A stretch of 64,000 nucleotides of DNA, taken from the NCBI GenBank assembly GCA_951828515.1, contig OX639992.1, positions 4,690,217-4,754,216 of the forward strand. The letters are read 5' to 3'. Made by a program: the position numbers and the translations under genes. This DNA comes from an uncultured Poribacteria bacterium. GTDB taxonomy: Bacteria; Poribacteria; WGA-4E; WGA-3G. Shown piece after piece: positions 601-17,018 of the stretch. How positions within the stretch are numbered: position 1 is the first letter of the stretch; the number at the start of each line of letters is the position of its first letter. Under the pieces are notes generated by a model. It worked only from the letters and a program-made list of their open reading frames with translations. It searched no databases and was not told the DNA's origin.

Positions 601-1068
601 TCATTGAGTTCCACTGCCAGTTACCAATAAGTAAATTCCAATTCCCGATAACGCCGCAAAACAGACAAAGAAGATAGTCGGTACAAAAGTTTCAACGACA
701 GTCAGTCGCCAGTAGGTTTTCTGCTCTCTGCCTTCGGCAAGTAGATCCCATTCGCGTTTGAAAAATGGATAGGTGAGTTTTTCTTCCAATTCATGTAACG
801 CCTTAAATTTCCCGGAATTCAGTTGACGATAAGAACGGATGACGATATACCATGCCGAGGCTAAAAGCATACCAAAGAGTCCGAAACCTACCATAAGCCA
901 TCCGAGTGGCACTCCGTTTTTACGTTGTAAGAAAGCGGAAAAAAGCACTGCTAACCCAGACAAAACCAGCATATAAAAGCGGTTTGCGGTTCCCCGCTGC
1001 TTGCTAACACTATCGGCGAGTCCCGCGTGGAGTTTGTAGATTTCTAACAATTCCTGTTTTTCATCCAT
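601..1068 (-). CDS. small three-helix membrane protein paired with a TIR-like gene (putative effector)
   Basis: A 155-residue protein starting at MDEKQELLEIYKLH. I prefer the ATG at 1068 to the longer frame at 1116 because it follows the stop of the TIR-like gene by two bases and has GGGAG upstream. Hydrophobic segments lie near residues 32-48, 55-77 and 125-148; the first two form a hairpin and a charged amphipathic stretch (HELEEKLTYPFFKREWDLL) lies before the third. The layout resembles the small SLATT/octameric membrane proteins that act as membrane-disrupting effectors beside TIR or nucleotide-signalling genes. Translational coupling suggests a two-component system. No macro or SLOG sensing domain is present, so how it would perceive a TIR product is unclear. 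Family assignment is tentative. Confidence 0.6.
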   Translation of the reverse strand: MDEKQELLEIYKLHAGLADSVSKQRGTANRFYMLVLSGLAVLFSAFLQRKNGVPLGWLMVGFGLFGMLLASAWYIVIRSYRQLNSGKFKALHELEEKLTYPFFKREWDLLAEGREQKTYWRLTVVETFVPTIFFVCFAALSGIGIYLLVTGSGTQ

Positions 1069-1070
1069 GT

Positions 1071-1481
1071 TTACGTTAACTCCCGAATCGCAGAAACAAT
1101 ACTTTCTGTATTCCAACCAACGATTTTATCGGCGGCATCTGTTACTTTCGTAGATATCCTTTGACTTCCGCGTGGTCTAATCGCAAGAATCGGTTTTACG
1201 GAGGAGAATTCATTTTGGGCAATTTGAATTTCTTTGTCAATCCATTTGCTGTAACTGGCGTAAACACCCGCTAATATCAATATAACACTGCAAGGAGCCA
1301 TCTGTCTTTTTATAGCAGCATAGAGTTGTTTATCAGTTCCGCTGGTATGGACAGGATCGTCTTTAGGGACAGAATAGTTACGATAGGAAAAATACTTTCT
1401 GGCATCAAGCAAGTTGACAAGTCCATTGTATGTATTACTGTAAGCCCAAGAATGACTGATAAAAAGGTTATAGGTTTTCAC
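1071..1481 (-). CDS. TIR-like protein of the DUF1863/MTH538 (ThsB-like) family
   Basis: A 136-residue protein beginning MKTYNLFISHSWAYS, the typical opening of TIR-like DUF1863 proteins (beta-strand, Ile-Ser-His-Ser-Trp loop). Later blocks fit the fold: a long loop with SVPKDDPVHTSGTDKQL, a hydrophobic strand CSVILILAGVYASYSKWIDKEI, and PILAIRPRG. Thoeris ThsB belongs to this family and makes an NAD-derived signal on phage infection. The GTG start at 1481 is chosen because GGAG lies 9 bases upstream; the TTG five codons earlier overlaps that site. A consensus-like promoter lies at 1536-1564. The partner is the membrane protein directly downstream rather than a ThsA with SIR2 or macro domains. 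Domain call is good; role in defence is inferred. Confidence 0.8.
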   Translation of the reverse strand: MKTYNLFISHSWAYSNTYNGLVNLLDARKYFSYRNYSVPKDDPVHTSGTDKQLYAAIKRQMAPCSVILILAGVYASYSKWIDKEIQIAQNEFSSVKPILAIRPRGSQRISTKVTDAADKIVGWNTESIVSAIRELT

Positions 1482-1535
1482 AATACTGATCTCCAATAGA
1501 AGGTTTGATGTTATTCATCTAATTAATGTTAGGTT

Positions 1536-1717: not shown

Positions 1718-4700
1718 CTAAACTGGTTCGCTACGTTTTGTTATCTCCGAAAGTGGCACCTGATACCTTACCTCTGTAATCTGTCGGACGGCACTTATCT
1801 GGCTCGCGGGATTCTGAAGTATGTAGGATTCCGGTTGTGTTGTTGCAGCATTGAGGACAACGTAGAGAAAATAGTCATCCTTAAGTTGCTTTGCTCTGAA
1901 CCACTCGTTGGCGGTAAGGACGACGGGGGCGCGATCCGCGCGGGCTTTCACTTCAATGCATCGGACTTTGCTATCCGGTGTTTTCGAGCGGAGATCGAAC
2001 CCCAGATTTTCTGCTGAGACATCCTCCACAACGCAGCCCTGTGCCTCTTCATGACGGGTAGCATGCTCCATACCAATTTGCTCAATTTCCAACCTATTGG
2101 GCATTGGTGTTTCTGTTTTATTGTCCCCTATAGCAGGACGGACACGAATGGCTCCAATAAAGACAGGTGGCTTTCTGACAAGTGTAACCTCCCGCTGACA
2201 GGATTGTTCTAGCTTCTTCTTTTCCTCCTCATAGCGATCCTTTTGTTCTGTCTTGTTTTGGACCAGCCGTTTGACATCTTCGCCATTGTCACTTTTAAGG
2301 GCAAGGTCCAGTAACTCACCATCCAGATTCAAGATGAGCCTCTCTAACGAGGTGATGCCATACCTTTTTTTAATGTCTACTTGTCTTTTCCGTTCTTCAG
2401 TAAGTTCCTTCTTATATGCATCTAAACGCAGGCGTACTTGCCCGCCTACCTTATCTTCAAGTGCCTGTATTTGTATCGGTTCTGATGTTGGTGATGCTTC
2501 TTGAAAATCCCAGATGACTGCTGGATTAATCTCTTCCACGGACTCCGAGTCTCGAGGCAGATAGAAAGCCAAAAGCTGTTTCCCCGCAACTGTATCTGTT
2601 CCATCTCGGATTTCGCCTTCATAAAAAACGATAATACCGTTGAATCTACCATCTGGATCTGAGAAACAGGCACCAGTTTTTAAATCTTCGGTGTATTTCT
2701 TTTCTACATAATGGAGAGCCGCTTCAAAGAGTGGATGACCGAAAGAAATAAATTCAGCCGTTGGGTCTATAGACGCCTGCGTTTTATCAAACGTCACTTT
2801 TGGATAACTTCTGCGTGTCAGTGTAGGATACATCTGCTTGAATTGGGTATCCTGACTAATTCTTGTTATTTGAATTGGGATACGATCAATCCTGAAAAAC
2901 TCATCTTTGCGCGGGTGGAGTCTACTATTGAGGGTTTCAAAAGTTTTCCGGAAGAATTCGCGTGTATACTCTGGAATAAGCCCATGCTCACGCGCTTGTT
3001 GTTGAAGTTCACTCACTTGGGGTAGGTTAATATAAGGAGAGACAAGCGTGTCTTGGTTAAAATCCTCAAACAGATTAAGCTGAACCGGATCAAGCGAGGC
3101 TTCAATCTCGTTAAGAAGTTGAGTGTAATCCCGTGTGCTCGCGGCAGCCTCGAGCATGAGTTGTGCCAAATTTCTCTTGGGGAAAAGTTCGCCAATGACA
3201 TCATAGACTCGGTCGGTTCCCAATTCATCCCGAATGGTGTCAAGTTTCTCAAAGAGACGGGTAAAGACAGCCCCTTCCCGCGTATCAGATGCTACAAGGT
3301 TGATGACATGAACCTCTTTTTTTTGACCATAGCGATGAATCCGTCCCATCCGCTGTTCAAGACGATTCGGATTCCACGGTAGATCGTAATTAATCATCAG
3401 ATGGCAGAATTGGAGGTTAATACCTTCACCTGCGGCTTCCGTTGCAATAAGGATCTGTGTTTCATTCTCAAAGGCGTGTTGTACCTCCACCCGTTTTTCA
3501 TGCGGCATCTTTCCGTGAATAACGGATACAGAAAATCCCCACGCCTTCACTTTTTGTGCAAGGTAATCCAGGGTATCAAAGTATTCCGTAAAAATGAGAA
3601 TTTTCTGATTAGGATGTTGCACGTTCAGTTCATCAAGTGCTTTTTTCAATTCTTGTAGTTTAATTTCCCTCTCGCTCTTGATAATCTGTTGGGCATTGTG
3701 TTCAAGATGTTTGAGTGTCTCAATTTCGTTGCTTAACTCTTCTCTGTTTTCGGCAACAGAGAGAACCCCCCACTGTTCTTCGCGCTCCCAACGCTCGGTT
3801 TCACCAAGATCTTCCACTTCATCACGCTGCTGCTCAGTGGGAACAGTGTCCGTGTGCAGCGTGGCATTCTGAAGCAATTCTTCAAGGCGTTGCTGTCGGC
3901 GTTGGAGGGAAACGGACAAAGCGTACGTGCTGGATGCGAGTCGCCGCTGCAATATAACAAGTGCGAATGCGATATTGTGCCGCTTCTGTGAATTTTCGGA
4001 AAACTTGTTATATTGCTCACGAATGTACTCAGAAAGTTCGTTATAGAGCTCCATCTCACTTTCAGATTCCGCACCGAGACGGAATGGCTTTGTCTGAACG
4101 TGGCGTGGTAGGAATAGTTTTTTCCCATCAAAATCTTTGAGGTCTTCCTTCACACGTCGGATGAAAAGTGGATTGTCGTTTTTCTTAATCGATTCCTGGA
4201 TTTGGGTTGGGTCTGCGAAAAAACCGGGTTCAAGGAGGTCAAGGAAGAGTCGGAAGTTCTCAGAGTCTCCTCTATGCGGTGTCGCCGTAAGAAAAAGGAG
4301 ATGTGTCGTGCAGTTAGAGAGGCATTCACCTAATTGATACCTTTTAGTTTTTTCAACTTTATCTCCATATTGGTAGGCCGCCATTTTATGTGCTTCATCA
4401 ACAACAACCAGGTCGAAATGGGTATTAGCGATTGCGCCACGGATTTCATCTTGTCGGGCAAAATCTATCGAGGTAATTAGTTGTTGTTCGCGACTCCAGA
4501 CGTTTTCGTATGGATGGGCGTTGACGAGGGCACGTGTGACATGTGTGAAATTCTCCTCAAATCGTGTCCTCATCTCCTCGGTCCATTGTGTGATTAGGTG
4601 TCCAGGGGCAACAATTAAGATACGTTTAACCTGATTTCGGAGTTTGAGTTCCTTCGCGATGAGGCCTGCCATAATTGTTTTGCCAGCTCCGGGATCATCA

Positions 4701-5071
4701 GCAATGAGGAAACGGATACGCGTCTGCTTAAGAACCTGCCACACGGCTTCAATTTGATGCGGCAGCGGATCTACTTTGGAGATACTAATAGCAAAGGTTG
4801 GGTTGTAAAGGGCAGCGTATCGGTACCGTTTTGCTTCAAGTCCAAGGAAGGCGTGGCGGGCATCGCCTGTAAAGTCCACTTGCGACTGAACGATCTGTAA
4901 CGTCTCCACTTCTGCTTGTGTGAGTTCCTGGTTGACAAAGTCTTGCGAATGAATCAAAGTACCAACAATAAGCACATCTCCGTGAGGAAGCGGCTGATAG
5001 GTTAGAACTTTAACAGGCTCTGCCCACAATGGGGATTCGACAATTGTACCGAAGGCAATATTCTGTGTCAT
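1718..5071 (-). CDS. SNF2-family helicase with C-terminal DUF3883 domain (DISARM DrmD-like)
   Basis: A 1117-residue SF2/SNF2 ATPase. Visible motifs are Walker A DDPGAGKT (about 125-132), DEAH (225-228), FLTATPHRG (260-268), ILIFTEYFDT (491-500) and motif VI QRMGRIHRYGQ (573-583). The region 385-480 is an extended charged insert between the helicase lobes. Near residues 1020-1090 the sequence SAENLGFDLRS...RCIEVKARA is the DUF3883 (NERD-like, possibly nuclease-related) signature. Helicases of this architecture work with adenine methylases in DISARM class 1 (DrmD) and related antiphage clusters; the DUF1156 gene at the left edge would be that partner. The start ATG at 5071 lies 33 bases after the small gene at 5104. 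Helicase activity is well supported; the system assignment is inferred because the rest of the locus is outside the window. Confidence 0.85.
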   Translation of the reverse strand: MTQNIAFGTIVESPLWAEPVKVLTYQPLPHGDVLIVGTLIHSQDFVNQELTQAEVETLQIVQSQVDFTGDARHAFLGLEAKRYRYAALYNPTFAISISKVDPLPHQIEAVWQVLKQTRIRFLIADDPGAGKTIMAGLIAKELKLRNQVKRILIVAPGHLITQWTEEMRTRFEENFTHVTRALVNAHPYENVWSREQQLITSIDFARQDEIRGAIANTHFDLVVVDEAHKMAAYQYGDKVEKTKRYQLGECLSNCTTHLLFLTATPHRGDSENFRLFLDLLEPGFFADPTQIQESIKKNDNPLFIRRVKEDLKDFDGKKLFLPRHVQTKPFRLGAESESEMELYNELSEYIREQYNKFSENSQKRHNIAFALVILQRRLASSTYALSVSLQRRQQRLEELLQNATLHTDTVPTEQQRDEVEDLGETERWEREEQWGVLSVAENREELSNEIETLKHLEHNAQQIIKSEREIKLQELKKALDELNVQHPNQKILIFTEYFDTLDYLAQKVKAWGFSVSVIHGKMPHEKRVEVQHAFENETQILIATEAAGEGINLQFCHLMINYDLPWNPNRLEQRMGRIHRYGQKKEVHVINLVASDTREGAVFTRLFEKLDTIRDELGTDRVYDVIGELFPKRNLAQLMLEAAASTRDYTQLLNEIEASLDPVQLNLFEDFNQDTLVSPYINLPQVSELQQQAREHGLIPEYTREFFRKTFETLNSRLHPRKDEFFRIDRIPIQITRISQDTQFKQMYPTLTRRSYPKVTFDKTQASIDPTAEFISFGHPLFEAALHYVEKKYTEDLKTGACFSDPDGRFNGIIVFYEGEIRDGTDTVAGKQLLAFYLPRDSESVEEINPAVIWDFQEASPTSEPIQIQALEDKVGGQVRLRLDAYKKELTEERKRQVDIKKRYGITSLERLILNLDGELLDLALKSDNGEDVKRLVQNKTEQKDRYEEEKKKLEQSCQREVTLVRKPPVFIGAIRVRPAIGDNKTETPMPNRLEIEQIGMEHATRHEEAQGCVVEDVSAENLGFDLRSKTPDSKVRCIEVKARADRAPVVLTANEWFRAKQLKDDYFLYVVLNAATTQPESYILQNPASQISAVRQITEVRYQVPLSEITKRSEPV

Positions 5072-5103
5072 AGTTTTTTTATTAACGTGAGTTTGAAAAA
5101 AGT

Positions 5104-5316
5104 TTAGTCGTTAGAAAGCATAGGTAAATCGTTGTTTTGCTGAAGTTCAGAGAAGTTCAGCGAGGGTTTGTTCTCCAAAAGCTGATAAGTTATCAATGCC
5201 GAGAGGACATTCACTTGGGAATTTTTGAAACTTCTATGCAGGGTGTGTTCTAACGCAGTCTGCGTTTTCAGTTCTTGGATGCCCGCTTGAATGAGGGACC
5301 GCTTCTTTAGCAGCAC
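5104..5316 (-). CDS. small hypothetical protein upstream of the SNF2 helicase
   Basis: A 70-residue frame with a GTG start at 5316 and only a weak GAG directly before it. The sequence is helical and leucine/glutamine-rich with no recognised motif. It lies in the same direction as, and 33 bases ahead of, the SNF2 helicase, and a possible promoter (TATAAA near 5333) lies upstream, so it could be the first gene of that transcript. It may instead be the remnant of a longer gene or non-coding leader. No function can be proposed. Confidence 0.35.
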   Translation of the reverse strand: MLLKKRSLIQAGIQELKTQTALEHTLHRSFKNSQVNVLSALITYQLLENKPSLNFSELQQNNDLPMLSND

Positions 5317-5364
5317 CTCATACCAAAAGAGTTCTCTTTATACAAAAAATCCTTGATTGTTTAT

Positions 5365-5387
5365 CAAATTCATGTTAGTTGAATTTG
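5365..5387. repeat. 8-7-8 inverted repeat, possible operator
   Basis: CAAATTCA and TGAATTTG form a perfect inverted repeat around a 7-base spacer. It overlaps a weak minus-strand promoter candidate, TTGATA (5362-5367), 19 bases from TATAAA, ahead of the small gene and SNF2 helicase. A dyad over the -35 box would suit a repressor. It could also be a weak terminator for the helicase gene that stops at 5404. No regulator gene is visible nearby. Confidence 0.3.
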
Positions 5388-5403
5388 TTTTTCAACAACT
5401 GGT

Positions 5404-8400
5404 TTAATCGCTCGCTATAACTCCAAAGGGTAACTGACATGTCTCCATTAAATAAGCCTCAGTTACACTCAATAACCGAAGTTGATCGATGCTTGCTTTT
5501 GATTTGGATAACCCCGGTTGAACGATAAATATTTTTAACTCAGTATGCATATCTCTACTCATTTCGCGAATTTCCCAAAGTTTATCTTGATTACCCTTCT
5601 CAAACCGACTTATCTCTTGTCGCCCTTCCCTTATTTCCTCGCGTCTAAGCAAATGTTCAAATAATTCAATTAAATTTTTCTTCTCCTTCCACTTCCAATG
5701 AGTGCTCTTTTGTGCTTGTCCACAAACGGTGTACAAATCATCAATTCTGCTACCAGGAGTTGCCCTCTGCGAAAACTTACAATGATAAAACTCAACCATT
5801 ATTACCTTTTTATGAACTTGAATGCAGACCACATCGGCTGCTTCACCCGAACCATCGTCATCGAAAATCACATCATAGTTTTTCTTTTTTAATTCACTGA
5901 TGACTCGGTACTGAATTGAGTCCGCAGCTTTCATGATTCCTTGAGTTTCTTTGGTAATGTCGATATCTCCCCAATTCCAAGTCTGTATTTTCTCTTTCGG
6001 ATAAGGCTCAAAATTTTTCTTCAATTCAGTATAATCGTTCCCTTCTAAAGAAGAGCCATCAACGAACCATATCATTGGCGGGTTGTTATAGAAGAAATCC
6101 TCAATAAGCAAATTTTTCTTGCCCTGATTAACCAAAGCAGTTTCGTTTCCAATAATAGAGAAATGGTAATCTCTATCGGAAAGTGTGAGTTTCAACTTTA
6201 GGTTCATCTCCTCGGAGCGAATTGCAAATTTCAATTCGCTGTCTTCAGAGGGGTTTATGAGTTCAATATCAGTCATAAAAAGAGAGAATTCTTTTTGATC
6301 AACAATAAAACTGAAAATCGTTTCTGCTTCTTTGTAAATTACATCTGGCCATGCAATGCAGACAGGCATTTTCTGAGGCCGGTGCGAGATAGTCTTCGGC
6401 ACTAAGGTTCCTTTCAGAACTTCGTTTGGATCTATCGTTTCATCTAAAACTTTTCTTCCGACGGTACTACACCATTTTCGCAGAGCATCAAGGTTTGTCT
6501 TACGTCGTGACCATATCCGACCCTTGTATGAACATCCGATGGTCGTTTGTTGTCCATTTTCATATCCATTTCCAAAAATATTCGATTTAATAACGTGTTC
6601 CTTTTGGGCTTCGGTTAGTCCTGCTTCAATATCTGAGCCAGCTCTCATTATAAATCGGATTAATCGTCCAAGCTGCTCAATAAGACCAACATTTTGAAGT
6701 TTCAAACGATTGACTCCAGAAAAACACCGAAATACCTCTACCCCTTTAATCATCTCAACGGCCCCCGCGACAGCTGTAGCCAACTTTTCATAATAACCGC
6801 TATTGTTGGAACTGTGAATGAAAAGCAATTCCTGATCTTTGTCCCAAAATAGAATGTAGAGATTCCAGTCCCAATTAAATATGTCACTTGATTGTGCCCA
6901 ATCAACTGGGATTTTTTTAGCAGTCACAATAACCAAAGTGTTCTTTTGAGCATTAGAGGTGTGATCCATATGATCGAAGGATTCTACGCCTCGGAGCCCT
7001 TTCTCAAAATCTTCTGGTTCCCAATTTTCGCACTCGGTCCTATAAATAACGGTGCTCATTGCTGTACGCAAATTCTGTAAAGATATACCTGTCAGATTAT
7101 TCTGAAATCCGGCGACGAGTTCCTGCAAATCAACCTTTTCCTGAGTTATTCCTTCGCTGGTTTCCTTCAATAAAAAATTCCAGTCAGAGTCTTGGCGATA
7201 GAGTTTCCTTAGTTTTTCCTCAACCTTGGGATCGGCGATATTTGCAATAAACGTAGGGTCCCCTAATGCTGACCCCGGCCGAGTAAATCTCCCCGCAAGT
7301 TGAAGTGTAACAGCAATACTTTTTCTAATGTCGTGAAATGCCGCAATCTTCAATTCTGGTAAATCAAAACCTTCACCAAACATATCAACACATACGACAA
7401 TTCTGGATTCTTTGTTGATTATTTTCTGGCGTATTTGCTCTTTTTTCTTCTCTGGTTTTATTTTACTATGGATTAGAATCGGATTGAATTCTGCATACTG
7501 CGCATATATCGAGAAAACTTCCTCTGCTCTTTTAATACTATTCACACGTGCCATAATAATATGGTCGTATTTCTTGATATCTTCACGAAGCTGTTTGACT
7601 GCCATATCTGCAATTGTTTGGTCAGCCTTGGTAAGGTTATAAACTCTAACTGGCTTGAAATGAATGCGTTTGAAATAACCCTCCTCTTGGGCCTTGCTTA
7701 AAGGGTAATTGAAAATGACTGTGCCCTCAACTGGTTTGTCGTCATTTCTAAAAGGCGTTGCTGTGAACTGAAGAACTTTTCTTTTATGAAACTTCTGCTT
7801 AAGTTTCTTCCACGTCATTGCTCCTAAATGGTGTGCCTCATCAATGAACAAGAATGGACAATGATACGCCATTTGCTCTTGCACTTCAGTATCACATTGA
7901 CCAGCAATGTCCATAGTCGTTACGACAACGTTGCACCTTCCAAAAAATAGGTCAACCTCGTCAGGGTCTTTCGGCTTGTGCTTCAATAGTCCAACAATTG
8001 GATAGAGTGCTTGATCTGATACGATTCCGAAGTCTTTCAAGACCCCAAGTGTCAGAAATTTATCAGCGATCTGCGTTCTGAGAGGATCGGTTGGTACCAC
8101 AACAAGAAGTTTTTCACACTGTTTTGAGATGAGAATGGACAACATTGTTTCTGTCTTACCTGTCCCTGTTGGCATAACTATGGTAGCAGCCTTATCAGTA
8201 ACAGTCCAATGTGCATGTGTAGCATGAACAGCACCAATTTGAGGCGGGCGAAGACCTTTGACCTTATTGTCTCTATCTTCAGACAAGTATAAAAAAGCAC
8301 TCTGCCAAGAGTTAATGACAGCCTTCAGTCGGTCTGTGTAACCAATAGAGCCCTCGGAATCCTTAAACATTTCTGGATGTCGTATCCATTCGCAACCTGA

Positions 8401-8673
8401 TAAATCAATAGAACCGCTATCATGGCTTCCCAAATCGTCAGGCTCTATCTTCAGAACTTTGTTAAATTTTTCCGGAGGATTGGATGAGGCAGATGTAGCA
8501 AGGATCCTTTCGCCACTATCATTAACTGGTGTGAGAAGGTATTCGTTATTGCTATTTTCCTGATAATGTTCAACAATCATTTCTAATGAGTGTTGAGGTT
8601 GGCTCAACTGTAGAATTGGATTTCCATTCCAGTCTGTATCAATTGCAAGTATTTGTGGAAATTGGATTTTCAT
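5404..8673 (-). CDS. large SF2 (DEAD/DEAH) helicase with C-terminal nuclease-like domain
   Basis: A 1089-residue protein. After a 160-residue N-terminal region come Walker A MPTGTGKTE (168-176), a Thr/Pro motif Ia (VVPTDPLRTQ), IDEAHH (277-282), FTATPFRND (303-311) and motif VI QLAGRFTRPG near 460, the order seen in type III restriction-like (ResIII) helicases. The C-terminus has GSGEAADVVCIQVHKKVIMVEFYHCK, then RIDDLYTVCGQAQKS, which looks like a degenerate PD-(D/E)XK nuclease core with an aspartate before the first strand and Glu...Lys on the next. Single-gene helicase-nucleases of this kind are common in defence islands. No methylase gene adjoins it. ATG at 8673 has no obvious ribosome-binding site. 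ATPase assignment is firm; nuclease activity is an inference. Confidence 0.8.
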   Translation of the reverse strand: MKIQFPQILAIDTDWNGNPILQLSQPQHSLEMIVEHYQENSNNEYLLTPVNDSGERILATSASSNPPEKFNKVLKIEPDDLGSHDSGSIDLSGCEWIRHPEMFKDSEGSIGYTDRLKAVINSWQSAFLYLSEDRDNKVKGLRPPQIGAVHATHAHWTVTDKAATIVMPTGTGKTETMLSILISKQCEKLLVVVPTDPLRTQIADKFLTLGVLKDFGIVSDQALYPIVGLLKHKPKDPDEVDLFFGRCNVVVTTMDIAGQCDTEVQEQMAYHCPFLFIDEAHHLGAMTWKKLKQKFHKRKVLQFTATPFRNDDKPVEGTVIFNYPLSKAQEEGYFKRIHFKPVRVYNLTKADQTIADMAVKQLREDIKKYDHIIMARVNSIKRAEEVFSIYAQYAEFNPILIHSKIKPEKKKEQIRQKIINKESRIVVCVDMFGEGFDLPELKIAAFHDIRKSIAVTLQLAGRFTRPGSALGDPTFIANIADPKVEEKLRKLYRQDSDWNFLLKETSEGITQEKVDLQELVAGFQNNLTGISLQNLRTAMSTVIYRTECENWEPEDFEKGLRGVESFDHMDHTSNAQKNTLVIVTAKKIPVDWAQSSDIFNWDWNLYILFWDKDQELLFIHSSNNSGYYEKLATAVAGAVEMIKGVEVFRCFSGVNRLKLQNVGLIEQLGRLIRFIMRAGSDIEAGLTEAQKEHVIKSNIFGNGYENGQQTTIGCSYKGRIWSRRKTNLDALRKWCSTVGRKVLDETIDPNEVLKGTLVPKTISHRPQKMPVCIAWPDVIYKEAETIFSFIVDQKEFSLFMTDIELINPSEDSELKFAIRSEEMNLKLKLTLSDRDYHFSIIGNETALVNQGKKNLLIEDFFYNNPPMIWFVDGSSLEGNDYTELKKNFEPYPKEKIQTWNWGDIDITKETQGIMKAADSIQYRVISELKKKNYDVIFDDDGSGEAADVVCIQVHKKVIMVEFYHCKFSQRATPGSRIDDLYTVCGQAQKSTHWKWKEKKNLIELFEHLLRREEIREGRQEISRFEKGNQDKLWEIREMSRDMHTELKIFIVQPGLSKSKASIDQLRLLSVTEAYLMETCQLPFGVIASD

Positions 8674-11813: not shown

Positions 11814-12458
11814 TTATATAGGCAAATAAGTTTGCCTATATTTGTCAGACTCATTTGCTGCCCTTGCCACTTCTTCTGCAAGTTGCCGCACAATTTGCTC
11901 TGCATCATTGATAGTGGCTATAGAATAAGAGATTTCAACAAGAGCACGTGCATCAAGCTCTTGAATGCCCACCACAAATTTATCTTCTGGTCGATGATAG
12001 GAGCGAGCTAAACTCCTTTGTATCAGAGGCATACGTAACTCTTTATCCCATCCGGGTGGAATGTTTTCAAGGAGAATCGCACGATACCCTTTGAATGTCA
12101 TATCAACTCTTGAGATAAAACCCCCTAGAATCACCTCATGACCTAAGCCGAAATTAATAGGTACTCGAGAGCCAATAGTCGTAATCCCTTCACTTTGGAA
12201 CCAATTCATGTAAGCATTAAGACACGTTAGGGTTTCTTGAATTCGGGAATTATTTTTCAGTTTGTGTTTGAGAAACTTCTCTCGGAGATACTGCCTAGCC
12301 ACTTTAACATCTTTATGTCGGTGGAAACGATTAATTTCCTCTCGGAGACATCGTTCATAGCTTATTCGATAGATTTTTTCGCTTTGATTAACCTGATTTA
12401 AAGCCCATTCGGTTGGATTTATCTGACATTCTGCAAGTTGACGATGACTAATTCTCAT
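11814..12458 (-). CDS. degenerate PD-(D/E)XK (Cas4/RecB-like) protein, fourth gene of the Qat-like operon
   Basis: A 214-residue protein. Residues 75-165 follow the Cas4/RecB nuclease layout: a helix, GHEVILGGFISRVDM (strand with Asp119), GYRAILLENIPP (strand with Glu131), then a helix rich in Gln/Arg that would match the QhxxY motif (PLIQRSLARSY). The lysine expected two residues after the acidic residue is missing, so the site may be dead or altered. The N-terminal 70 residues are strongly basic. ATGA overlap of four bases with the QatC-like gene makes them translationally coupled. It occupies the place of the TatD nuclease QatD in the classical operon. The fold call is an inference from pattern only. 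Confidence 0.6.
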   Translation of the reverse strand: MRISHRQLAECQINPTEWALNQVNQSEKIYRISYERCLREEINRFHRHKDVKVARQYLREKFLKHKLKNNSRIQETLTCLNAYMNWFQSEGITTIGSRVPINFGLGHEVILGGFISRVDMTFKGYRAILLENIPPGWDKELRMPLIQRSLARSYHRPEDKFVVGIQELDARALVEISYSIATINDAEQIVRQLAEEVARAANESDKYRQTYLPI

Positions 12459-13744
12459 GACAAAAACGGCTCCAGTGCTGAATATCGACTGAGTACAGTC
12501 CGTGCCTCCTGTGAAAAACGTTTATACATTGCAACAACTTTATCGGGATTGAAATTGGACGAGTGAAGTTCAGGCCATTCGCTCATAATTTCTTCAGTTG
12601 ATAATCTCTCGATTCGTACGATAAATTCTGCTAAATCAGCGATGTTCCGTCGTCCAGTGTTTGCAGAATCCGGTTGGCCAATTTCCTCTCCCCAACAATC
12701 CTTACCGTAAGCCGTCGAATCTTCGGACATTGAGTGTTCAATTGCAATGCGTCGGATAAAACATGGAATACATTCGCCGCAATGTGTAATACCTGCGCCA
12801 AGACGAGCACTGCGCCAACAACTATTAGTGATTGGAATTATATCCGGGGAGAAATCGATGACCTTTTTAACTACCTCTGCTTTCGTTAAATGGACATACG
12901 GATTTGAGATTTTGAACGGTATGCCAAGTGCTTCCGACAGAAATGACTCCATACCGACTAAAACATCTGGATGGGCTGTATGCGTGGAAAGTGCTCCAAT
13001 TCGACCTTGAGTCAAAGGTAAATGAATAGCCATCTGCCCATTCTCAGCAAGATAGACAACTTCGACGTGTCCCGCCCGACGTGCCACGAGTGCCCCAAGT
13101 ACAAGAAAAAGAAATGAGCGTGTTCGTTGGGTATTTTCTAAAGCATGTTCTAACTGACTCGGTCCACCGTCCCGCGAAGAAACGAAAAATTGGTAGTGTG
13201 GAAGATTCAACCCACAACCTTTTAGTTCTGAAGTTAAATTTATTTGTGCCTGATCTGTAGTTCGATTCCGTGTTTTATGGCTAACAAGTTGTAGCGTTTT
13301 ATCCTTTTCGCCAAACTCGATGGCTGCAGCAAGCGAGTCTAGTCCACCGGAGAAGAGAAGGGTTCGCCCATATTCTTGAGCATACTTAATATCCTCTTCG
13401 GGATTGCCAGACACCTGTTTCAGATTGACCCTCCAAGCATCATTCGAGAGTTTGCGGAGTATTTCCTCGATTTTCCTGGTGAGTGGCTGCAAGCGAAGGG
13501 CATTGACCACTGGAATATGTAGTTCAATTCGTCTCGCAAGGTCTTCTCGATGACCACGGGCAGTAGCTCGGTCTGCAGCAAAGACAGATGCACTGAGCAG
13601 CAAAAGATCCGCTTCCAAACTCGTCAATGGTCCAAATTCTTTCTTAAAGTCATCTTCGCCTGTAATCAAGTTCGTTCCGACCTCAAGTACGTGATTACAG
13701 TTCCCATGCTCATTACCTCCGCGACGCACAAGGTATGAAATCAT
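12455..13744 (-). CDS. qatC: QatC-like (QueC-family) PP-loop enzyme
   Basis: A 429-residue protein with the PP-loop ATP-pyrophosphatase motif FSGGLDS at 131-137 and a zinc site made by Cys309, Cys322, Cys325 and Cys328 (THCGECIPC), both diagnostic of the QueC family. It is almost twice the length of housekeeping QueC and carries the 120-residue N-terminal extension and RTRSFLFLVLGALVARR block of defence-associated QatC. QueC makes preQ0 from carboxydeazaguanine; the defence relatives (QatC and Cap9 of type IV CBASS) are, as I recall, reported to attach a deazaguanine to the N-terminal glycine of a partner protein. Start and stop overlap both neighbours by four bases. Family assignment is strong; chemistry is by analogy. 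Confidence 0.88.
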   Translation of the reverse strand: MISYLVRRGGNEHGNCNHVLEVGTNLITGEDDFKKEFGPLTSLEADLLLLSASVFAADRATARGHREDLARRIELHIPVVNALRLQPLTRKIEEILRKLSNDAWRVNLKQVSGNPEEDIKYAQEYGRTLLFSGGLDSLAAAIEFGEKDKTLQLVSHKTRNRTTDQAQINLTSELKGCGLNLPHYQFFVSSRDGGPSQLEHALENTQRTRSFLFLVLGALVARRAGHVEVVYLAENGQMAIHLPLTQGRIGALSTHTAHPDVLVGMESFLSEALGIPFKISNPYVHLTKAEVVKKVIDFSPDIIPITNSCWRSARLGAGITHCGECIPCFIRRIAIEHSMSEDSTAYGKDCWGEEIGQPDSANTGRRNIADLAEFIVRIERLSTEEIMSEWPELHSSNFNPDKVVAMYKRFSQEARTVLSRYSALEPFLS

Positions 13745-14313
13745 TGCCCTCTCCTCTCCCCGCGGAGGGATGCAAGTACCTCAGAAATATAACTTCGCCA
13801 TCCTTCTGGGTCAGTTGCTATGGAGGCTGCAGTTCTTGCGGCTTCCCGAGCGATGTTACGTAGATTTTCCTTGAGAGCGATTGAATCGGATGTTGTCTGA
13901 ATACGACCTGGAGCTCCGACAAAAGAAGGTAAATCACGAGAGGCATAATACGATGTGGCTTCAGCAAAAAGCTCTTCAGCAAACCCGAGAGAACCGGATT
14001 CGGCGGCTGATGAGCGTGCCAACGCTCGCTTGGCCATATCAAGCGTGAGACCTGCTGCGTGCTGTTGGTTCAAGGTATTGTCGAATGACTGAACAGCACT
14101 ATCAGGTGGAATCCTCTCTTCGGCAATTTCACATGCCGTGGCTAGTAATGGATCTGCCAGTTCTTCAGTCAATCGCCCGTCTCGATCCGCGAGAGCAGAT
14201 TGCCAAAGTTCCTCGCTCTGTCGTTCAGCAGGCCAATCCAAGTGTCCCAATGCGGCTTGAGCGGGTCGCCATTCTGGTACATTTGGGGATGATTGATTGC
14301 TAGATGTACCCAC
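13741..14313 (-). CDS. qatB: QatB-like protein with Met-Gly-Thr-Ser N-terminus
   Basis: A 190-residue, mostly helical, alanine- and glutamate-rich protein of unknown fold. It begins MGTSSNQSSPNVPEW, similar to the MGTS...GP..P.W start of QatB proteins encoded before QatC. The GTG start at 14313 is fixed by GGAG seven bases upstream and by the stop of the previous gene two bases away, so the exposed glycine after methionine removal is a real prediction. In Qat and type IV CBASS such a glycine is the proposed acceptor for deazaguanylation. A four-base ATGA overlap joins it to qatC. Shorter than the QatB proteins I remember (about 250 residues). Homology rests on the N-terminus and position. Confidence 0.62.
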   Translation of the reverse strand: MGTSSNQSSPNVPEWRPAQAALGHLDWPAERQSEELWQSALADRDGRLTEELADPLLATACEIAEERIPPDSAVQSFDNTLNQQHAAGLTLDMAKRALARSSAAESGSLGFAEELFAEATSYYASRDLPSFVGAPGRIQTTSDSIALKENLRNIAREAARTAASIATDPEGWRSYISEVLASLRGERRGQ

Positions 14314-14315
14314 AA

Positions 14316-15245
14316 CTAAACTCCGTTTTTCACCCGTTCATCATTAACAGCCTGCAGTTCCTTCTTAATGCTGCTTAAACGAATTCGGCCACCCTTGAAA
14401 ATCTGATTCCAATAGATTCCATTACGGGCGTCTGGATTTTCCCGGAAAAGATTGACAGTTTTAACAAGAACATCGGCATCAATAAAAGACAAAGGCACTT
14501 GGGCTTCCGCTAAAAAATTCAAACACAGTTCTATTAGCCGAGCATCATCTTGCTTAAAATTAGAAGATGATATGAGTGCTCCGCACAACTCCACGTGACC
14601 ATGTTGTCGAACACGTTGCCGTTTAACATATTCTACGAGCGGGCGTAACTCTGACCATATGACATCAAAGCCATCAGCAGATGCTTTTGTATCAACGACG
14701 AGAACGTGTCCTGTTGGCATTTGAGCCTGCATATCACTGACAGCACGGCCTCGGACACGTCCACCTAATCTTCTAACACGGCGTCCAAATATAAATTCTA
14801 ATCCGGAACTAACTAAGTCCTCAAAAATCAACCATGCTTCGCTTTCAGTTACACCAATAGGTAACTCATTCTTGGCTGCAGTTACCAAAGCTTGATCGTA
14901 CTCCGGACTGAGAGCTTGCCACGAGGGAACGGCTCCGCCAAGTGCCTCAGTAAAATCCTCCCACGAAATTGTTCTCTCACTCGATATGGGAGTTATAATA
15001 ATTGGAATACGGTCTTGATTTTCAGCAGAATGGTAAATGTCATCAATTTCCACCTCAGAGAGTTCATCAAGATCAGTCACAGCGATCAAATATGGAATGC
15101 TCGCCCCAAGAATATCTGTTCGCTTACATAGAATTTCGATATGTCCGGGTTGCCTATGGCTACCCTCTATTGAATATCCAGCAACAATGAGTGTCCGAGT
15201 GGCGGTTGGGGTTTGAGGTGGAGTTCTGTGACTATCGTCTACCAT
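14316..15245 (-). CDS. restriction-endonuclease-like protein, first gene of the Qat-like operon
   Basis: A 309-residue protein. Residues 140-210 carry a PD-(D/E)XK-type core: Glu142 in FEDLV, Asp171 in AVSDM, then the strand VLVVDTKASA with Asp185 and Lys187, followed by a helix ELRPLVEYVKRQ. This resembles Mrr/PDDEXK nucleases in which the D-x-K pair coordinates metal. The N-terminal half has alternating strands and may be a separate sensing domain. ATG at 15245 has AAGGA six bases upstream. The gene is two bases ahead of qatB. Classical Qat operons start with a KAP-family ATPase (QatA); none is present, so this nuclease seems to replace it. Nuclease fold is inferred from motif spacing. Confidence 0.62.
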   Translation of the reverse strand: MVDDSHRTPPQTPTATRTLIVAGYSIEGSHRQPGHIEILCKRTDILGASIPYLIAVTDLDELSEVEIDDIYHSAENQDRIPIIITPISSERTISWEDFTEALGGAVPSWQALSPEYDQALVTAAKNELPIGVTESEAWLIFEDLVSSGLEFIFGRRVRRLGGRVRGRAVSDMQAQMPTGHVLVVDTKASADGFDVIWSELRPLVEYVKRQRVRQHGHVELCGALISSSNFKQDDARLIELCLNFLAEAQVPLSFIDADVLVKTVNLFRENPDARNGIYWNQIFKGGRIRLSSIKKELQAVNDERVKNGV

Positions 15246-15703: not shown

Positions 15704-16339
15704 TCAACCTTCTGTTGAAGGATATAGTTTGTTGAGTTTGATCCGTGCATCGTCGGTCGTAAACCGCCACTTGACCGTGGCACGTTGCTGATTTCTTCGG
15801 TCTTGCCATGCCTGGACCTCGCGCTTGAGGGTCTGTTGGTCGGGGATACGCCTTGAAAGGCATTGCCTGCTGAGGACGGAAAACTCAATCTCGGCGATGT
15901 TCAACCAACTGCCATGCTTCGGGGTATAGTGAAACTCCAACTTTTCAGCGATCCGATCCGCTTCGTCGGCTTCAAATGCCTTATACAAAGAACCGAGTTT
16001 GTGTGTATTGAGATTATCGCAAACCAGCAGAATCTTTTCTGCGTCTGGAAAATGCACATCGACGATATCTCGGCAGATATGTGCGAAATCAATGCTCGTG
16101 CGTTGGTCGGTGACTTCAACGTGTCGAAATCCGAAAAAGGGTGCGAAAATCATAAACAGATTGCTGACGCCATTGCGTTTATATTCAGGATCATATCGGT
16201 AAGGTTTCCCCGGACTTAGGGGCAGCGGCGGACGCATTTCCTGAAGGTGCTGTTTATTCGTCTCATCGACACACACCACAGGATACCTCGGGTCTTCAGG
16301 GCGCCCATAGAGGTCTAAGATGCCTTCCATCGCCGTCAC
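15704..16339 (-). CDS. IS630 transposase, C-terminal DDE half (orfB)
   Basis: A 211-residue frame holding the catalytic DDE core of IS630/Tc1 transposases: VVCVDETNKQ (first Asp), ILLVCDNLNTHKLGSLYKAF (second Asp) and FHYTPKHGSWLNIAEIEFSVLSRQ (Glu), spaced as usual. It overlaps the upstream half by four bases, but the open frame extends back to the A8 run at 16411-16418, so it is most likely made as a fusion by -1 slippage rather than from its own ATG at 16339. It stops 8 bases inside the left end of the element. Confidence 0.9.
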   Translation of the reverse strand: MTAMEGILDLYGRPEDPRYPVVCVDETNKQHLQEMRPPLPLSPGKPYRYDPEYKRNGVSNLFMIFAPFFGFRHVEVTDQRTSIDFAHICRDIVDVHFPDAEKILLVCDNLNTHKLGSLYKAFEADEADRIAEKLEFHYTPKHGSWLNIAEIEFSVLSRQCLSRRIPDQQTLKREVQAWQDRRNQQRATVKWRFTTDDARIKLNKLYPSTEG

Positions 16340-16845
16340 GAATGCCTCCGAAGCTTCTGCTGGGATACACCAGCACTGCTTGCGCCAGGGACGCAGCTCG
16401 TTTTTTTTAGCACCTGTCGGATGCTTTCATGAGAAATACTTGAAAAATGGTGGAGCTCCACCATTTTCTCAGCTAACAGACGCAACGTCCAGCAGGCATG
16501 CCCCTCTGGCGGATCCGAACAGGCCAAGGCGATGAGATGTGCCTCTTTTTCGCCATCAAACTTTTTCGGTCTTGAGACCTGAGAGGGCTTTCTCGGGAGC
16601 AGGGCGGCTTCGAGACCTTCAAGCGCAAAGGTTTTACGCACGCGCTGAATAGTAGACAGGGAGACATCAAGACCTGCTTTTATCGCCTTATCGAGGAAAG
16701 CGGGTCCAAACTCGCCCGCGTCTGCTTTCAACAAGATCCGGGCGTGCGTGAGTTTTCTCGCAGATGCCGTGCCTGAAGTCGTCAGAGTTATCAGAGACTC
16801 TCGTTGCTCTGAGTCAAGAAGAACAGGGTAACGTTTTGCTGGCAT
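16336..16845 (-). CDS. IS630 transposase, N-terminal helix-turn-helix half (orfA)
   Basis: A 169-residue frame with homeodomain-like helix-turn-helix DNA-binding segments: ARKLTHARILLKADAGE...AGLDVSLSTIQRVRKTF (about 25-75) and SISHESIRQVLKKT (about 135-150). The start at 16845 is preferred to 16929 because GGAG lies six bases upstream and the longer frame would begin inside the terminal repeat. In frame 0 the protein runs past the A8 tract (CTA AAA AAA ACG) and ends after a short unrelated tail; a -1 shift there continues into KKNELRPWRK and the catalytic half, giving a full-length transposase of about 360 residues. Confidence 0.88.
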   Translation of the reverse strand: MPAKRYPVLLDSEQRESLITLTTSGTASARKLTHARILLKADAGEFGPAFLDKAIKAGLDVSLSTIQRVRKTFALEGLEAALLPRKPSQVSRPKKFDGEKEAHLIALACSDPPEGHACWTLRLLAEKMVELHHFSSISHESIRQVLKKTSCVPGASSAGVSQQKLRRHS

Positions 16846-17018
16846 AACAGACTCCAACTGAAAGGATTTATGACATTGACACGCAGCATACCAGTTTTCA
16901 CAATAACTATCAATAGAAACTTGACACACTACTAGTATTTATGAGATAGATTCTACTTACATTTTATTATCGAACTCACGTCAAGTAGATAGATACAGAG
17001 ACCCACCTTACGGTTCAA

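Follow-up and report, generated by a model that had tools for sequence, protein, structure and literature searches.

Within a 64,000-nucleotide stretch of the genome of an uncultured Poribacteria bacterium (assembly GCA_951828515.1, contig OX639992.1, positions 4,690,217 to 4,754,216; hereafter the window), we analysed a four-gene operon on the minus strand, the genes of which are called P1 to P4 in the order of transcription (Table 1). Sequence, predicted structures and synteny together support the identity of the four parts and their obligate association: a QatC-type enzyme (P3) and a QatB-like partner (P2) are combined with a FokI-like protein (P1) and a protein of RecB fold that has lost its catalytic residues (P4). 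P1 and P2 are separated by 2 bases, P2/P3 and P3/P4 are joined by ATGA overlaps, and the sequence GGAG is located 7 bases 5' of the GTG start codon of P2, as expected of a ribosome-binding site. A first-pass annotation of this DNA had described four open reading frames coupled in this manner, a second gene starting with Met-Gly-Thr-Ser (MGTS) behind a ribosome-binding site, a QatC/QueC-like third gene with an SGGLDS loop and four zinc cysteines, and an operon devoid of QatA and QatD, all of which is confirmed by the analyses below.

Table 1. Features of the four-gene operon and of its surroundings, numbered from the first letter of the window.
Feature	Position	Strand	Description
P1	14316..15245	(-)	309 aa; N-terminal domain (residues ~1-135), then FokI-like cleavage domain
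FokI-like catalytic region of P1	14586..14837	(-)	D171, D185-x-K187; aligned with FokI PDG...DTKAYS
P2	13741..14313	(-)	190 aa; GTG start; QatB-like all-helical protein, N-terminus MGTS
MGTS codons of P2	14302..14313	(-)	presumed N-terminal glycine acceptor
P3	12455..13744	(-)	429 aa; QatC-like enzyme, QueC family
SGGLDS pyrophosphate (ATP) loop of P3	13334..13351	(-)	invariant in alignment
TxTxHP of P3	12968..12985	(-)	T254-H-T256-A-H258-P259; aligned with T278/T280 of P. aeruginosa QatC
Zinc cysteines of P3	12761..12820	(-)	C309, C322, C325, C328; invariant in alignment
P4	11814..12458	(-)	214 aa; RecB/AddB/Cas4-like PD-(D/E)XK fold, catalytic residues gone
ThsB-like TIR protein and adjoining 8xMP octameric membrane protein	601-1496	(-)	PF08937, 3.2e-15; PF24838, 3e-33
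HmaA/DrmD-like SNF2 helicase and adjacent ResIII helicase	1718-8673	(-)	HmaA, 4.4e-206
IS630-type transposase	15704-16929	(-)	two overlapping reading frames, directly upstream of the operon

The QatC enzyme and its QatB-like partner

P3 matches QatC in PADLOC (9.5e-60), the NCBIfam QatC model NF041925 (2.3e-66; the 224 bits lie under the curated equivalog cut-off of 280) and the QatC chains of the PDB (9vlk, 3.5e-32; 9zee, 7.9e-31). The score against the QueC equivalog TIGR00364 is 20 bits at a cut-off of 150, and the equivalog level is not reached. Along with the ATP loop and the zinc cysteines, the QatC motifs ENG, P(x)4TK and CGxC..C..RR are maintained, and TxTxHP is found in 76 of 77 canonical QatC proteins as well as at all five loci of the four-gene type known to us (see below), at which the YPDC substrate motif is lacking from QatC throughout. 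P3 is, as judged from its sequence, a QatC with active-site motifs of the QatC type. In the P. aeruginosa enzyme T278 and T280 are essential, and this Thr-x-Thr stands where QueC and Cap9 hold the base through Tyr/Asp (PMC13279940).

The adjacent P2 begins with MGTS in 5/5 orthologues, with P10 and W15 likewise invariant, in agreement with the essential N-terminal glycine motif (MGTS) of QatB in qatABCD (PMC13279940). While Pfam yielded no match for P2 of the window, its AlphaFold2 model, built with homologues (pLDDT, the predicted local distance difference test score, 91), is predicted to adopt a QatB-like fold. Among ~1000 PDB chains compared using VIA-align, the QatB chains of 9y01/9y02 are the only two with Z >5 (9.5 and 9.2, with a root-mean-square deviation of 3.5 A over ~150 residues), the best unrelated chain reaching 3.7. 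The relationship can also be traced through a further group of QatC partners that start with Met-Gly-His (the MGH type, see below): P2 without its tail matches these at profile level (96%), and they in turn match QatB (77.5%), as compared to <3% for unrelated families. We conclude that P2 and QatB are probably, albeit remotely, related. A general P-x-W tail motif across the QatB families was also considered and dropped, as the corresponding regular expression matches 22-29% of shuffled QatB and P2 tails and misses the MGH spacing.

The outer proteins and the relation to known systems

When the five P1 proteins are combined into a profile and compared to the PDB, FokI (1fok/2fok) is the only significant relative (E 1.6e-4, covering FokI residues 415-495; the next match has 0.41). 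P1 of the window alone has no Pfam match, and three single orthologues detect FokI_cleav_dom (PF09254) with E-values of 1.6e-5, 5.1e-5 and 4.5e-5, their scores of 24.9, 23.4 and 23.2 being slightly below the gathering score of 25. D171, D185 and K187 are invariant in 5/5 orthologues, while the rest of the protein has diverged to 20-42% identity; in FokI the catalytic residues are D450, D467 and K469. Hence P1 carries a FokI-type cleavage domain with its catalytic residues intact, PD...DxKA and the following segment aligning to FokI. Unlike this type IIS enzyme, P1 is devoid of the FokI DNA-recognition domains, has another N-terminal domain and is not accompanied by a methyltransferase in the operon. 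A likeness of the N-terminal part to short Argonaute chains was discarded as not significant (E ~0.7).

P4 of the window is likewise without a Pfam match. Its AlphaFold2 model (pLDDT 81) resembles the AdnA nuclease domain (Z 16.3), ACE1 (13.4; Foldseek E 1.2e-5) and AddB (12.3), and also Dna2, RecE and Cas4, the predicted fold spanning the whole domain of the RecB/AddB/AdnA/Cas4 PD-(D/E)XK nucleases. Using hhalign, the P4 profile matches PDDEXK_1 proteins from related genomes (61-88%), with the GxxDRxD of the latter opposite GFISRVD of P4 and DFK opposite LLE. The catalytic Asp of GxxDRxD is replaced by S/S/N/P/G in the five P4 proteins, the Asp of DxK is conserved in none of them, and the lysine is gone as well in the window and in Granulicella. 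As the catalytic aspartates are lost in 5/5, P4 is probably a RecB-fold protein without a nuclease site, and an active nuclease was rejected as an interpretation of this gene. In contrast to the nucleases that it resembles, P4 is also a stand-alone protein of 204-214 aa without a helicase. The first-pass annotation had assigned the PD-(D/E)XK fold to both outer proteins, with D-x-K intact in P1 and the lysine missing from P4: the relation to nucleases stands for both, and P1 can be specified as FokI-type, whereas the designation of P4 as nuclease-like in function falls with its aspartates. The kinship of P2 to QatB and the conservation of the gene order in other genomes, for which the same annotation had suggested checks, are likewise found.

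Profiles built from canonical QatA (a KAP-family P-loop NTPase) and QatD (a TatD-family nuclease) have no match among the open reading frames of the window or beside QatC at the four other loci, and therefore the operon is not a member of qatABCD. As in that system, QatC bears the ATP, zinc and Thr-x-Thr motifs, and its MGTS partner of QatB fold is encoded immediately 5' of it, the two genes overlapping in like manner. However, P1 and P4 take the place of the KAP ATPase and the TatD nuclease, P2 has 190 aa as compared to about 250-300 in QatB, with a short N-terminal tail, and the QatC protein does not group with the canonical clade. Type IV CBASS (cyclic-oligonucleotide-based anti-phage signalling system), in which Cap9 and Cap10 operate with a CD-NTase, similarly couples a QueC-family enzyme to a partner with an N-terminal glycine motif. 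Nevertheless, the closed set of P1, P2, QatC and P4 includes neither a CD-NTase substrate nor Cap10, P2 is all-helical and QatB-like rather than a CD-NTase, and QatC is without the Tyr/Asp base-binding residues of Cap9. Across about 5.4 million open papers, with subscription papers and supplements outside the scope, two recent articles on QueC/QatC and the abstract of a CBASS preprint proved to be the only ones of direct relevance, and in the text consulted no FokI or RecB-fold partner of QatC is described.

Distribution, relatives and genomic surroundings

The order P1-P2-QatC-P4 is kept in at least five genomes of four phyla, i.e. in the window, in Acidobacteriota, in two Chloroflexota and in Kiritimatiellota. 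In a scan of a species-level genome collection (84,980 species) using an alignment headed by the QatC of the window, the three top matches, Granulicella sp. S156 (51% identity), Anaerolineales UBA2395 (45%) and a Kiritimatiellota metagenome-assembled genome (43%), are far ahead of the next (32%) among the matches listed, and all three have the four genes in this order and tightly spaced. The fifth locus, in a second Chloroflexota genome, was obtained by a profile search of further genomes. Among 184 distinct QatC loci, the P1 and P4 profiles have matches at these 5 only, and in the QatC tree the four sampled members of the four-gene set form one clade (100 in the Shimodaira-Hasegawa-like approximate likelihood ratio test, SH-aLRT), distinct from canonical qatABCD as well as from a large third group. 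With the same order in four genomes besides the window, and an MGTS start of P2 in 5/5, the set is more than a chance arrangement, and its recurrence in five genomes of four phyla makes it probable that this distinct QatBC-based variant is a Qat-like defence system of a kind not yet described.

The four-gene set is rare: 85 host-phylum genomes, Kiritimatiellota draws of 388 (phylum) and 288 (class) genomes, 327 genomes of a Chloroflexota class draw and 396 of an Acidobacteriota draw yielded no additional locus, although more members may exist beyond the matches listed. The searches made with P1, P2 and P4 gave no sign of the set on phages or plasmids: tblastn with these three proteins has no match on plasmids, alignment searches of IMG/VR with P1 and P2 are without match, and the P1 protein of locus L099 has none in phages or plasmids. 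A search of viral contigs with the QatC sequence of the window alone recovered no relative.

A large group of two-gene loci, here called MGH-type, consists of a ~260-aa Met-Gly-His protein and, after it, a QatC of 550-750 aa that is extended at its C-terminus (L009:841-3578, L010:3161-5892, L012:2947-5689 and about 70 loci, many of them in IMG/VR contigs). The text consulted of the two publications on QueC/QatC holds no mention of these loci (PMC13279940, PMC13329287). In relatives of the window genome, the extension is a TIR domain (L009:1623-3578, L010:3161-5110, L012:2947-4974; for L009, TIR_2 1.9e-15 and ThsB-like 1.9e-58), and elsewhere QatC is fused to a C-terminal DpnII-MboI restriction nuclease domain (L231:3372-5288, L232:3468-5345, L118:5899-7761; 1.2e-10 to 4e-8). 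MGH-type fusion loci resemble the operon in having a QatC relative, a partner homologous to the P2 body and effector-like domains, but differ in that the effector is fused to the QatC C-terminus, the partner begins with MGH, and P1 and P4 are missing. The TIR and DpnII-MboI fusions to QatC suggest that a QatBC core could drive different effectors. Two other QatC loci deviate (L226:3372-5632 and L241:1935-5845), one with an MGS-starting partner of 258 aa and the other next to a helix-turn-helix gene and a PIN-like gene.

The surroundings of the operon are listed in Table 1. With its ThsB-like TIR protein, HmaA/DrmD-like helicase and ResIII helicase, the window is by its gene content a defence island, for which a defence role of the operon would be the natural reading. 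The TIR and 8xMP genes may constitute a two-gene TIR/membrane defence pair, and none of the usual Hma or DISARM partners was seen beside the two helicases. Close to the UBA2395 locus there are genes for a type I methyltransferase and for a TIR-domain protein.

A proposed mechanism and its alternatives

With moderate confidence, we propose that the operon encodes an anti-phage system based on QatBC, in which the FokI-like P1 and the non-catalytic P4 replace QatA and QatD and the P2/QatC pair licenses P1. P2, as the QatB equivalent, would bind QatC; removal of the initiator methionine would expose Gly2 of P2, which QatC would then modify using ATP, and the P2-QatC complex would license P1. Since FokI domains cut only as dimers, assembly of P1 on DNA is the likely switch, controlled by P2/QatC and by P4, the latter being a candidate non-catalytic DNA-binding or scaffold subunit. 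The output would be cleavage of phage or cellular DNA by P1. The modification of the P2 N-terminus, the nature of the added group, the control of P1 and the defence output are steps that we infer, whereas the ATP and zinc sites of QatC, the MGTS start and the catalytic residues kept in P1 and lost from P4 are found in the sequences themselves. That QatBC alone gives defence in the known system (PMC13279940) is in agreement with a QatBC-based mechanism.

The chemistry at the glycine is a separate matter, for which the signals are mixed, as MGTS is conserved but the base-binding residues are replaced. Conjugation of a deazaguanine to the P2 N-terminus, as the first-pass annotation had put forward, is possible, but it is in doubt and not favoured here, because Thr-x-Thr occupies the base site of QatC and two of the five hosts are without recognisable QueC and QueE. 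Three of the five host genomes have a canonical QueC above cut-off along with QueE- and QueD-model matches that fit the pathway, and in the window host this QueC is separate from P3. In the two Chloroflexota hosts (G086, G510), the assemblies of which may be incomplete, there is no canonical QueC, and only generic radical-SAM matches to one QueE model and weak QueD-like matches are seen. If this absence holds, no 7-carboxy-7-deazaguanine (CDG) is made in these hosts, and the group on P2 would be different or imported. The QatC reaction and the mode of phage arrest by QatB are open questions even for qatABCD (PMC13279940).

Several observations weigh against the proposed mechanism. In qatABCD, the outer proteins QatA and QatD only alter the phage range (PMC13279940), and among the matches listed only five loci of the four-gene type are known. 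No fold was recognised for residues ~1-135 of P1 by profile and Pfam searches. The link of P2 to QatB depends on predicted structure and on the MGH-type intermediates: a Z of 9.5 is a modest value when the protein is helical, QatB takes third place (E 1.0) and thus finds weaker support if Foldseek is used alone, and sequence-level homology of the two bodies was abandoned, as the direct profile match is not significant (2.4%).

The first of these points leads to an alternative that we consider somewhat unlikely, namely that P2-QatC itself is the defence module and that P1 and P4 are accessory, widening the phage range or regulating the complex, so that the P1 nuclease is not the effector. It is consistent with the protection afforded by qatBC alone in the Qat systems of P. 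aeruginosa and of E. coli (PMC13279940), QatBC being itself the defence module against phage lambda, and with a locus at which an MGTS-type QatB and QatC occur without adjoining QatA, QatD, P1 or P4 (L154:5152-7155). The presence of P1 and P4 in 5/5 clade members, however, argues against it, as do the P1 catalytic residues, which have stayed invariant in an otherwise strongly diverged protein.

By analogy to toxin-antitoxin systems, P1 could instead be toxic to the host and be restrained by P4 and/or modified P2 until a phage interferes with QatC or P2, an abortive arrangement that we judge improbable. The tight coupling of the four genes would suit it, a catalytically dead protein of nuclease fold such as P4 could serve as an inhibitory subunit or as a decoy, and related QatC proteins bear TIR domains, which are typical abortive effectors. 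On the other hand, P4 (RecB type) and P1 (FokI type) belong to different nuclease subfamilies, and P4 is thus no simple paralogous inhibitor of P1 dimers.

QueC-family enzymes make the 7-deazaguanines that phages use in their DNA, and together with the FokI-like restriction nuclease domain of P1 this would allow modification-dependent restriction, in which P1/P4 recognise modified phage DNA, e.g. 7-deazaguanine DNA, and the QueC-like protein has a base, not a protein, as its substrate. This is highly improbable, as the operon has no DpdA/TGT-like gene, QatC lacks YPDC in 5/5 and has the Thr-x-Thr of the QatC type, and MGTS, in 5/5, points to a protein N-terminus. Nor did an E. coli queC mutant regain queuosine with QatC (PMC13329287).

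Returning to the licensing of P1 by P2 and QatC, the operon would couple the QatC-P2 enzyme-substrate pair to a nuclease, so that DNA cleavage could be followed as its output, and the minimal, short-tailed QatB of 190 residues offers a cleaner system to determine what the glycine carries and what it controls. The two hosts that apparently do not synthesise 7-deazaguanine make the deazaguanine question directly testable. Only tentatively, we suggest a new immune class. In it, QatC would attach a small molecule, but not 7-deazaguanine, to the N-terminal glycine of a switch protein of QatB fold, and the tagged form would turn a dimer-dependent nuclease of FokI type on or off, assisted by a catalytically dead DNA-binding subunit of RecB fold. 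If the TIR and DpnII-MboI fusions are taken into account as well, this would place QatBC as a general, modular signalling core that may serve several effectors, with FokI, TIR, DpnII-MboI or KAP/TatD outputs.

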